From: an uncultured Treponema sp. | GTDB taxonomy: Bacteria; Spirochaetota; Spirochaetia; Treponematales; Treponemataceae | Direction of reading: 5' to 3' | NCBI GenBank assembly: GCA_946411505.1 | Contig: CAMKEG010000006.1 | Coordinates: 62,001-126,000 of the forward strand | Length of the DNA: 64,000 bases | Shown: piece after piece, positions 4,438 to 24,587 of the stretch | How the letters are laid out: the number at the start of each line of letters is the position of its first letter | Numbering within the stretch: the first letter of the stretch is position 1 | Made by a program: the position numbers and the translations under genes | The notes under the pieces: generated by a model | Seen by the model: only the letters and a program-made list of their open reading frames with translations | Database searches by the model: none | What the model was told of the DNA's origin: nothing

Positions 4438-4600
4438 GGCTACATCCACGCAGTTTTATACTGATTCGTCTGAAGTCGGCTCCGTACGGAACTTTACCCT
4501 TCATAACTCTTCATAATTATTTTCGGCCCGCGCCGCGAAAAACTTTAGCGAAATTTTTAAAAAAAATGAAAAAAAATTAAAAACTGACAAAAAAGGCGAA

Positions 4601-4754
4601 AAAAAACGCTCCCAGTTGCGGCTGCGTCATTGCGGAACCGCTTGATAACTGCGCTACTCGCTGTTTGCGCTTGAAACTATTTTACTTCGCCGCTTACGCG
4701 GCGGCGCAAACAGAGAGTTTCCGCAAGCCGCCCCGCGCCTTCCGCGTTTTTTTT
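4601..4754 (+). repeat. Dispersed structured repeat, copy A
   Basis: One of six related elements in the window. It begins with an A run and AACGCTCCCAGTTGC and ends GCGTTTTTTTT; these ends pair. Inside are a second pair (TTGCGGAA with TTCCGCAA), then the stem CTGTTTGCGC / GCGCAAACAG enclosing TTGAAACTATTTTAC and a small GCCGC / GCGGC hairpin. GAGTTTCCGC follows. It lies in the 531-bp gap between two divergent genes, flaB2 and the lipoprotein gene. See the findings for the compensatory changes between copies. Confidence 0.8.
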
Positions 4755-4830
4755 CGCCTTTTTTGCGAATTTTTGTTTTTCGCTAATCTCCAAATAATAG
4801 AAGCGAAGTTGAATGTAACAAAAAATTCTC

Positions 4831-4859
4831 TTGACAAAAGCGGCGGCGTCACTTACAAT
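4831..4859 (+). promoter_or_regulatory. Sigma-70 promoter of the lipoprotein gene
   Basis: TTGACA (4831-4836), 17-nt spacer, TACAAT (4854-4859). The predicted transcription start near 4866 leaves about 24 nt of leader, containing the AGGAG ribosome site of the gene at 4890. Confidence 0.8.
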
Positions 4860-4889
4860 CAGCGCCATTAACTTTTAGGAGAAAAGCTT

Positions 4890-5846
4890 ATGAGAAGACT
4901 TTCTAAAGCCATGGCTATCTTGACGCTAGCCATTTGTATGGGGGGGGGTATAGCCTCTCTAATTTCGTGCAGCAACAATTCTGACAACAATTTGGCGCGT
5001 TTGGCCCTGTTGAACAATGGGAGCGGCGGCGGAACGCCTGCGCCCACGCCTACAGCTCCCACTGGCGGAATCAATGGCTTGTTCAGCGTTAGCGCGACAA
5101 AGAAGGTTTTCTTCTCAAAGGGAAACCTGCGGGCAACATACGACGGCTCGTCATGGACTTGGTCTTTTGCCGACCATCAGTATGACGCTGTAGGCAACGC
5201 GGCCGCCAACACTTTAATCGACGGCAACGGAACTGTTTCTGCTCCCGGTTCGGTTGACCTCTTTGGCTGGGTTGGCGAAAATTCCGCTTTCGAAGGCATG
5301 GCGGCCTTTGGAATTTCCAAAAACGATACCAACAGTGCTTACGGAAACACTAACGGCGAGGCGCTCAAAAACGACTGGGGAACTAATGCCATCAGTAACG
5401 GCGGAAACGTCGCCAACTACGGCTGGCGAACGCTTACCAACGACGAATGGAATTATGTTTTAACCACTCGCGCGGGCGCTGACAGCAAAAAAGGCGCCGC
5501 GACAGTAAACAGTGTGGCTGGCTGGATTCTTCTTCCTGACGCTTGGACGCTCCCGGCCGGCGCGAGCTTTACCGCCGGATGCGCAAGTGAATTTACAACC
5601 AATTCTTACACCGCCGAACAATGGGCGGTTATGGAAAGCGCCGGCGCGGTCTTCCTTCCTTTAACAGGAACGCGCCGTGGCTCAAATGTGTTCTACAGTA
5701 CGCTTTATGGATACTATTGGTCAGCTACTAGCAAAAGCTCGACGGAGGCGTATATAGCATCTTTTAGCGCTTCAAAGTCCTCTTGCAGCAATATGGGCCG
5801 CGGTTATGCCTGCGCGGCTGTCCGTCTTGCAAAAGACTCTAACTAG
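4890..5846 (+). CDS. Surface/periplasmic lipoprotein with paralogous-type C-terminal domain
   Basis: A 318-residue predicted lipoprotein. The N-terminus has a positive start (MRRLSKA), a hydrophobic core and a lipobox ending LISC (Cys27), then a Ser/Gly/Pro-rich linker (about residues 28-62). The rest has DLFGWVGENSAF, WRTLTNDEWNYVL, GYYWSATS and ACAAVRL, resembling the repeated secreted domains found in large paralogous families of gut bacteria and treponemes; its function is unknown. Start chosen at 4890 with AGGAG 9 nt upstream. It has its own promoter and terminator. The signal-peptide codons contain a run of nine G (4940-4948, encoding part of MGGGIAS), so slippage would frameshift the protein before export. 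Confidence 0.75.
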   Translation: MRRLSKAMAILTLAICMGGGIASLISCSNNSDNNLARLALLNNGSGGGTPAPTPTAPTGGINGLFSVSATKKVFFSKGNLRATYDGSSWTWSFADHQYDAVGNAAANTLIDGNGTVSAPGSVDLFGWVGENSAFEGMAAFGISKNDTNSAYGNTNGEALKNDWGTNAISNGGNVANYGWRTLTNDEWNYVLTTRAGADSKKGAATVNSVAGWILLPDAWTLPAGASFTAGCASEFTTNSYTAEQWAVMESAGAVFLPLTGTRRGSNVFYSTLYGYYWSATSKSSTEAYIASFSASKSSCSNMGRGYACAAVRLAKDSN

Positions 5847-5874: not shown

Positions 5875-5912
5875 GGCGGTCTTCCTATAAGGGGAGGCCG
5901 CCGTTTTTTTTT
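5875..5912 (+). terminator. Intrinsic terminator after the lipoprotein gene
   Basis: GGCGGTCTTCC and GGGGAGGCCGCC form an 11-bp stem with minor mismatches around a 5-nt loop, followed by a run of nine T (5904-5912). It starts 29 nt after the stop codon. Confidence 0.85.
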
Positions 5913-23258: not shown

Positions 23259-24587
23259 CTAGTTATTCATACCCCCCCCCTCTAGCTGCCAAGTCTTCAG
23301 CTTGCCCATGCCTTCGTAGTCTTTTTCGGGAAGGGCTTCAAAAGCGTAAAGTTCGCCAAGCTGCGCGTAGACGCTTTCCGAAACATGGATGCAGTTGGGC
23401 GAGCAAGTGTTCTGCAGCATTTCCGCCAAGGCGATTGGGTTTCCCCAGGCGTTTGAAATGAAATTTTGGTTTCCCACAAGTTCCGCGACTACAGGGCCGC
23501 TGGCGACTCCTATCCTAAGCTGCAAGTTCATTCCGTTTTGCGTGTTTGTCTTTTTTAGAATGCTTAAGATTTCTATCGCGAAGTGAATCATTTCCGAAGC
23601 GCTCATGGAGCCTTGTTCCGGAATGCCGGACACCGCCGAGTAATAGCCGCCGAAGCTGCGGATTTTTTCGACGCTGAAACTGTCGGACGCGCTTTCGATT
23701 TTTTCAAAAAGGCTCGACAAGTACCTTGAAAGGCGCTCGATGCCCATCCTGTTGGCGAACTTGGCGAAGTCCACGACTTCAAGGACCAGCACGCAAACGT
23801 CGGAGAAAATGTTGGCCACGGGATTTGCGGTCTCCAAGCTTTTTTTGTTGATTGGAGTCGTGGAGTAAAACCTTATCAAGTCGCGGGCCCGTTTGTTAGC
23901 CTGAGCCAGCCTGTTGATGGTTTGCGCGTCCGGATTTTCCACGGTGAAGTACATTATGAAAACTGTTACGGACGTTCCGAAGCCGACCAAAAGCAGCTCC
24001 TTGTTGAACATTTGGACAATGGCGATGATTCCTTCCATCACGCAGAAGGAAAGGATTGAGAAAACCTTTGACATTTTCATGTGGCGGGCGTTGAGCAAAA
24101 GGACAAAAATCACCATCATGACTGAAAAGGTCGAGAACATGTACGTGATGTCCGACGGGGCGCCGTATGAGTAAATTTGCCTTCCGTATCCGGAGTAGTA
24201 AAGCCTGCTCACGCAAGTCAATATCGTTATCGCGACTATCATCGCGGACAGGACGGACAAAAGGCCGAACTTAAGCGTTTTTAGAATCGGAGGAAGCTTT
24301 CTGTTTGTGGCGCAGGAAATCGTGTAAATGTCAATCGCGTATATGAAGCCGTTCATCGCCACGATGTAAGCCTTGCTTAAAAAATTGTTGAGCAGGGGCA
24401 TTGAGTCCCGGTGGTTTATCGTGTAGACGCTGGCTATGTCCAGGGCAAGCTCGACAAGCGTTATTATGAGTATTGCCTTGTAAATTCTATTTTGCGTCGA
24501 ATCCCATTTTACTTTCTTAAAAAAGGCCACAAAAAGTATGGTTGTGAAAATAAGGCCCGCGATTTGAAATTCTATCGATATCGGCAT
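23259..24587 (-). CDS. Seven-helix membrane protein with degenerate class III nucleotidyl cyclase domain
   Basis: A 442-residue protein. Residues about 5-220 carry some seven membrane helices; residues about 255-435 match the class III cyclase fold in overall pattern (RIGVASGPVVAELVGNQNFI, HVSESVYAQLGEL). The catalytic positions look substituted. The first metal Asp falls on Glu (VLEVVDF), the second on Gly (RSFGGYYSAVSG, where GD is usual), and the G-D-x-V-N-x-A-x-R segment reads GNPIALAEM. The domain therefore looks catalytically dead and may bind a nucleotide or a partner instead. The last codons (LEGGGMNN) include a nine-G tract. It has its own leaderless-type promoter. Confidence 0.7.
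   Translation of the reverse strand: MPISIEFQIAGLIFTTILFVAFFKKVKWDSTQNRIYKAILIITLVELALDIASVYTINHRDSMPLLNNFLSKAYIVAMNGFIYAIDIYTISCATNRKLPPILKTLKFGLLSVLSAMIVAITILTCVSRLYYSGYGRQIYSYGAPSDITYMFSTFSVMMVIFVLLLNARHMKMSKVFSILSFCVMEGIIAIVQMFNKELLLVGFGTSVTVFIMYFTVENPDAQTINRLAQANKRARDLIRFYSTTPINKKSLETANPVANIFSDVCVLVLEVVDFAKFANRMGIERLSRYLSSLFEKIESASDSFSVEKIRSFGGYYSAVSGIPEQGSMSASEMIHFAIEILSILKKTNTQNGMNLQLRIGVASGPVVAELVGNQNFISNAWGNPIALAEMLQNTCSPNCIHVSESVYAQLGELYAFEALPEKDYEGMGKLKTWQLEGGGMNN

Follow-up and report, generated by a model that had tools for sequence, protein, structure and literature searches.

A run of nine guanosines (G9) lies within the signal peptide of a lipoprotein gene of an uncultured Treponema sp. 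The gene is part of a stretch of 64,000 nucleotides (nt) of contig CAMKEG010000006.1 (assembly GCA_946411505.1, positions 62,001 to 126,000), which is called the window here and whose first letter is position 1. We regard this gene as very probably a contingency locus, in which slipped-strand phase variation switches export of the lipoprotein by reading frame. When the DNA is replicated, mispairing of slipped strands at the G9 tract would lengthen or shorten it by one G. At lengths of 9 (or 6 or 12) the whole lipoprotein would be made, exported and lipid-anchored; at other lengths translation in the wrong frame would end within about 32 codons and no lipoprotein would be present at the surface. 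A ligand-binding fold of the C-type-lectin-like kind is probable for the mature part, so the cell would thereby switch an adhesin or antigen. In sister lipoprotein genes the tract would act either within the signal peptide, as a switch of translation, or between the -35 and -10 elements, as a switch of promoter spacing. The tract, the frames, an orthologue with G8, mixed states in relatives and both the excess of such tracts and their placement were directly observed; we infer the frequency and reversibility of slippage within a population, the surface exposure of the protein and any benefit.

The initial annotation, made from the letters of the window alone, had placed a G9 tract inside a lipoprotein signal peptide, and this was confirmed at exactly 4940-4948 in the open reading frame (ORF) 4890-5846. 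The signal peptide reads MRRLSKAMAILTLAICMGGGIASLIS|C. The protein has the features of a lipoprotein, namely a basic start (MRRLSKAM...), a hydrophobic stretch and the lipobox LISC with Cys27, all assigned by eye. The tract is read as ATG GGG GGG GGT, with its first G as the last base of the Met17 codon. In silico, 9 G (and also 6 or 12) resulted in the full protein, and the frame was closed within 31 codons with 8 or 10. The prediction that a slip of one base shifts the frame before the lipobox thus held, with stop codons at 4951-4953 (8 G) or 4982-4984 (10 G).

A syntenic orthologue was found in the genome RUG14523 (locus L010), with a flagellin gene on one side and matching downstream DNA on the other. 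Around the tract it is 92.8% identical to the window locus. Its tract is G8 and out of frame, and due to this length the frame closes after 20 codons with the body of the gene still open. Tract length, which the initial annotation had suggested comparing between strains, was therefore not an invariant G9 among relatives. The leader DNA matched 6 of 200 genomes of the genus at E 1e-5, own genome included. The sole other full-length leader match appears to be the RUG14523 locus itself, as judged from the contig number and near-identical coordinates, and was counted once.

Related loci showed the same mixture of states. Locus L174 (G9, out of frame) shares 98.6% identity with locus L190 (G8, in frame) over 1010 bp, or 93.8% in a longer alignment of 1873 bp, and L166 (G10, out of frame) is 91.9% identical to L163 (G9, in frame). 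A hand tally over four genomes gave 18 tracts in lipoprotein-type signal peptides, 9 in frame and 9 out of frame, including L186, whose lipobox is not clear. Two runs at L184 (17 and 30 G) beside a run of N, which marks an assembly gap, were left out of the signal-peptide and promoter tallies. In the out-of-frame cases the other frame was open for 158 to over 700 codons. Length differences between related isolates, as expected of a contingency locus, were present as G8/G9, G9/G10 and G10/G11/G12 between species-level genomes.

The number of G-runs was compared to chance expectation. In the window, G8 or longer matched 5 times versus 1.67 expected, and 5 of 100 shuffled sequences also reached 5, a mild enrichment. 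The whole assembly (2.82 Mb in 14 contigs, 94.7% complete) harbors 16 distinct runs of G9 or longer, versus 0.7-1.5 expected by extrapolation from the decay of run lengths in the window. Run lengths were G8 (n = 8), G9 (n = 11), G10 (n = 3) and G11 (n = 2); simple decay would not yield more G9 than G8. A repeat tract longer than expected by chance, one mark of a contingency locus, was thus observed. By our reading, all 16 runs have G on the sense strand of their gene or of the downstream gene (the gene at L045 is uncertain). At least 8 of them belong to lipoprotein genes, in the signal peptide or the -35/-10 spacer (Table 1). A ninth lipoprotein tract of this genome (L196, G8) is out of frame.

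In the four genomes, 13 tracts were located between a TTGA-type -35 and a TA-rich -10 element, with spacers of 16 nt (2 tracts), 18 nt (7), 19 nt (3) and 20 nt (1). An ORF with a lipobox, recognized by pattern, follows 11 of these 13. Orthologous promoter tracts also differed in length: one set has G10, G11 and G12, another G8 and G10.

These promoter tracts bear on the possibility that the DNA does not change at all and that slippage of RNA polymerase or the ribosome on the G-run lets each cell make some product at any length, as noise or low expression. A run of 8-10 G could be slippery in transcription or translation, and the long frames retained in out-of-frame copies would fit this as well. 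Such slippage leaves unexplained both the sister tracts in untranslated promoter spacers and the DNA length differences of close orthologues, and we consider it very unlikely.

Searches over the genus showed that the arrangement is widespread. G9 was present in 56 of 59 genus genomes. A pattern of ribosome site, ATGA and G9 (13-43 bases after ATGA) was matched 136 times, in 59 of 196 genus genomes, versus 6 times for the reversed pattern; long runs were counted repeatedly in both directions and totals were summed by hand. Thirty of these loci were fetched, of which 12 were in frame, 18 out of frame and 21 had a lipobox pattern. For the promoter pattern, 31 matches were counted in 15 of 59 genomes of the genus, versus 0 when it was reversed. 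Order-wide it occurred in 44 of 291 genomes, with none for the reversed pattern, and a hand count assigned 27 of these to the genus (79 genomes), 16 to the family's other genera (39 genomes) and 1 to the 173 genomes beyond the family. The signal-peptide pattern was found in 3 of 39 genomes of the family outside the genus. Because of this difference (16/39 versus 3/39), the sequences indicate that the promoter form is family-wide and that the signal-peptide form is concentrated in the genus.

In the order-wide search, many signal-peptide matches of one family (f5) were runs of 12-36 G, several of them within 100 bases of contig ends. The controls were also higher in this family, and its order-wide signal-peptide matches were not used as evidence. 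These long runs are probably an artefact of sequencing chemistry, and they are a warning for genome-wide surveys of poly-G in metagenome assemblies.

Could the tract instead be a passive stretch of glycine codons, with assembly errors or the decay of pseudogenes behind the G8 and out-of-frame copies? The consensus lengths of the relatives do come from metagenome assemblies, one orthologue alone was found for the window locus, and runs of more than 20 G at contig ends in the order-wide search look like sequencing artefacts. A passive run does not account for 16 runs of G9 or longer where about 1 is expected, nor for the counts of the start-codon pattern (136 versus 6) and the promoter pattern (31 versus 0). 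Out-of-frame copies retain frames of hundreds of codons, and errors would not put tracts into -35/-10 spacers of 16-20 nt. We therefore judge this explanation unlikely.

Several observations weigh against switching of the window gene by its tract. No second independent orthologue of the window locus was found among the 200 genus genomes. All tract lengths are assembly consensus, those of the named relatives from metagenome assemblies, and single-base assembly errors at G8-G10 are possible. The lengths were compared between species-level genomes; a search of viral contigs with two leader patterns for population variants gave none. Some orthologous tracts are invariant: L052 and L154 are both G9, as are L050 and L162, and L049 and its two orthologues are all G9. 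As the tract of this last set, in a WYL-type regulator frame, is G9 in all three genomes and the other two pairs are equal, not every tract varies. The other outcome that the initial annotation had regarded as contrary was interruption of the tract in relatives. The paralogues in four genomes have G8-G11, half of them out of frame and followed by long intact frames, and L011, a relative from RUG14523, has only GGGG at the tract site. From its sequence L011 looks locked on, and tract shortening thus does occur in some family members. Finally, a TTG at 4934 starts a frame which passes through the lipobox at 8 G, and the 8-G "off" state of the window gene may therefore be leaky, with weak translation from this codon. 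Taken together, sequence comparison leaves the phase variation proposed in the initial annotation well supported.

The window gene has a fixed promoter of its own. A consensus promoter had been claimed, and TTGACA-N17-TACAAT indeed matches 11 of 12 consensus positions; the G-run begins 81 nt downstream of the -10 element and not in the spacer as in tp0126 of T. pallidum. The gene stands alone, as previously described, and is flanked by a flagellin gene read divergently and a Ham1-type gene read convergently (Pfam). The features of the locus and the placement of all G9 or longer runs of the genome are compiled in Table 1.

Table 1. Features of the window lipoprotein gene (positions in the window) and location of the 16 runs of G9 or longer in the genome (window positions or locus labels).
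Feature	Position or locus	Strand	Basis or remark
G9 tract, proposed slip site	4940-4948	+	nine consecutive G, read from the letters
Lipoprotein gene, 318 aa, in frame at G9	4890-5846	+	ORF translation
Signal peptide, 26 residues, tract within hydrophobic part	4890-4967	+	translation, boundaries by eye
Lipobox Leu-Ile-Ser-Cys, residues 24-27	4959-4970	+	by eye
Cys27 codon	4968-4970	+	by eye
Sigma-70-type promoter TTGACA-N17-TACAAT, 11/12 consensus matches, spacer without poly-G	4831-4859	+	
Shine-Dalgarno AGGAG, ATG 8 nt further on	4877-4881	+	read from the sequence
TAG met when the tract loses one G (20-residue peptide)	4951-4953	+	
TGA met when the tract gains one G (31-residue peptide)	4982-4984	+	
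Mature domain, residues about 60-318	5067-5843	+	C-type-lectin-like fold likely; weak Fib_succ_major match
Intrinsic terminator of the gene, hairpin 5875-5902 then T-run	5875-5911	+	
Promoter spacer of lipoprotein genes (five runs)	L044, L047, L052, L053, L054		
Between start codon and lipobox of lipoproteins (three runs)	window tract, L046, L057		
Near codon 75 of MBOAT acyltransferase genes	L050, L051, L055		Pfam on L050 and L051
Codon 10 of WYL-type regulator frame (one run)	L049		
Coding frame without Pfam match (one run)	L056		
Short secreted frame, out of frame (one run)	L045		
3' ends of genes (two runs)	L048; window 23272		histidine kinase; class III cyclase

Relatives of the window protein were found at 30 loci in public genomes; five are from spirochaetes (RUG13809, RUG14523, RUG239) and the others mostly from Bacteroidales, with 28-45% identity. 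These three relatives' genomes have runs of G8 or longer at 16, 15 and 17 places. We take RUG to stand for rumen uncultured genomes, and our label "gut-type" for the habitat is based on these names. A protein search of 59 related genomes, own genome included, matched only 2, and the family is therefore narrow. The relatives differ in loops, and L009 has nearly the C-terminal half of the window protein with a different leader; from the sequences, leaders and bodies seem to have been exchanged among relatives.

The window protein matched Pfam PF09603 (Fib_succ_major) at residues 166-312 with 21.8 bits (E 2.5e-4), which is under the curated cut-off of 33.9 bits; 3 of 21 relatives matched this family at E 0.001 (best 6e-7). 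The Pfam search showed no Tpr or OmpW match, and a sequence search against solved structures gave no match. An AlphaFold2 model was built from the 21 relatives (predicted local distance difference test score, pLDDT, of 72; the signal peptide was not confidently modelled). Foldseek with this model found no match at E 0.001 or better. The best alignments of the model by VIA-align had middling Z scores, with the Lcl C-terminal domain (6.4), Bd2740 (5.4), Mtd (5.0), PvdO (4.5) and TaqVP (4.5), all of which we take to belong to the C-type-lectin-like group. From the model, a C-type-lectin-like fold that binds a ligand is probable for the mature part, and the window protein would then be a ligand-binding surface protein.

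Resemblance to Mtd (Z 5.0) and TaqVP (Z 4.5), although middling, could point to a target of a diversity-generating retroelement, in which the G-tract would be incidental. The 247 bases at the 3' end of the gene have no template-repeat copy, and beyond the gene and a paralogue nothing longer than about 29 bases matches. No template repeat was found in the own genome (94.7% complete), in which a reverse transcriptase was not searched for. The relatives differ by loop swaps and indels and not by changes of A only. With no template repeat in this 94.7% complete genome and no A-only change pattern, the retroelement hypothesis was rejected, and we consider it extremely improbable.

Tracts were also observed in genes for other functions. 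The MBOAT genes L050, L051 and L055 of the own genome and L150, L152 and L162 of another genome (G083) have G8-G9 near codon 75. L150 (G8) is out of frame, and its genome also contains a 97% identical copy with G9. These sequences suggest that surface acylation could be switchable via MBOAT tracts. In the WYL-domain regulators L049, L172 and L193 a G9 tract follows codon 9 of a frame that starts upstream. In all three genomes G9 closes this upstream frame, and the short leader stops just before the GTG of the regulator frame, an arrangement which is possibly one of coupled re-initiation or of a switchable regulator.

A further G9 of the window (23272-23280, minus strand) falls within the final codons of a class III adenylate/guanylate cyclase gene (23259-24587, minus strand; PF00211, E 6e-31). 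This tract is kept in all four genomes with lengths of 9, 10, 11 and 12 (window, L161, L169 and L181), which would alter no more than the last few residues. The end of a histidine kinase gene has G10/G9 in L048 (own genome) and L180 (genome G035), respectively. In L048, a lipoprotein frame lies about 200 nt downstream of the tract, and a -10-like TAATAT comes after the tract, with no clear -35. The signal-peptide tracts of L156 and L177 also lie between a TTGACA and a TAATA-like hexamer with a spacing of about 16-17 nt. Here, the coding tract may also serve as a promoter spacer, or one kind of tract may derive from the other.

Upstream of the gene, at about 4598-4756, the window contains a dispersed element of about 155 bp with a strong hairpin (DNA fold z -7.7). 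It has at least 41 matches of 76-100% identity in the genome, its own place included (40 of 108 candidates scored). About 188 bp at this site are absent from the orthologous site in L010. Rfam showed no family in the 64-kb window, including this element, which by its sequence is likely a small mobile or repetitive extragenic palindromic (REP)-like repeat.

The mechanism is of a known kind and has already been described in T. pallidum, in line with the statement of the initial annotation that poly-G is a route to phase variation in treponemes. According to PMC7864442, poly-G phase variation in T. pallidum affects tprE/G/J, tprL and tp0126/OmpW, with 17 further tracts of at least 8 G, and 76% of 17 tested tracts vary in length. 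The G-runs, of about 7-11, are located in the promoter or early in the coding sequence of genes for surface proteins, and several of them start 7-99 nt within reading frames; the run of tp0126 separates -35 from -10 and adjusts their spacing to 17 nt (PMC7864442). The set described here resembles T. pallidum in having guanosine runs in promoters and early coding sequence of surface-protein genes. Unlike in the Tpr and OmpW genes, the window tract lies in a lipoprotein signal peptide, and the nearest named records are uncultured RUG assemblies rather than the agent of syphilis. In porA and opc of Neisseria meningitidis, as retold in PMC7864442, a homopolymer between or at promoter elements sets transcription. 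In contrast, the window gene would be switched in translation from a fixed promoter, and the promoter form is present in sister genes only. The open-licence literature on poly-G or phase variation in treponemes and spirochaetes dealt with T. pallidum, reviews and other bacteria, with no title on commensal or rumen treponemes, and in it we found no multi-locus poly-G set with lipoprotein signal-peptide switches in gut-type treponemes.

In our view, gut-type treponemes likely have a genus-wide repertoire of recurrent switches in lipoprotein signal peptides, promoter-spacer switches of sister lipoproteins and in-frame MBOAT tracts, by which each cell would show a random subset of surface lipoproteins and of surface modifications. 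This would be a multi-locus phasome in bacteria not known as pathogens. It would be similar to the phasomes of Campylobacter and Neisseria in its many repeat-switched genes for surface structures, and different in belonging to gut-type treponemes, which are not known as pathogens. Those phasomes comprise at least 10 switchable genes per genome, many for surface structures, and a 2025 review asks why multi-locus phase variation seems confined to pathogens (PMC11868660). If true, the present set would be a candidate counter-example, testable in metagenomic reads. Most of what is known of poly-G switching in treponemes comes from the agent of syphilis, which is hard to grow and manipulate. The gut-type treponemes would offer a setting for the study of treponemal surface switching with tract lengths counted in reads as the read-out, and with signal-peptide and promoter-spacer tracts in sister genes, switching of translation and of transcription could be compared within one cell.
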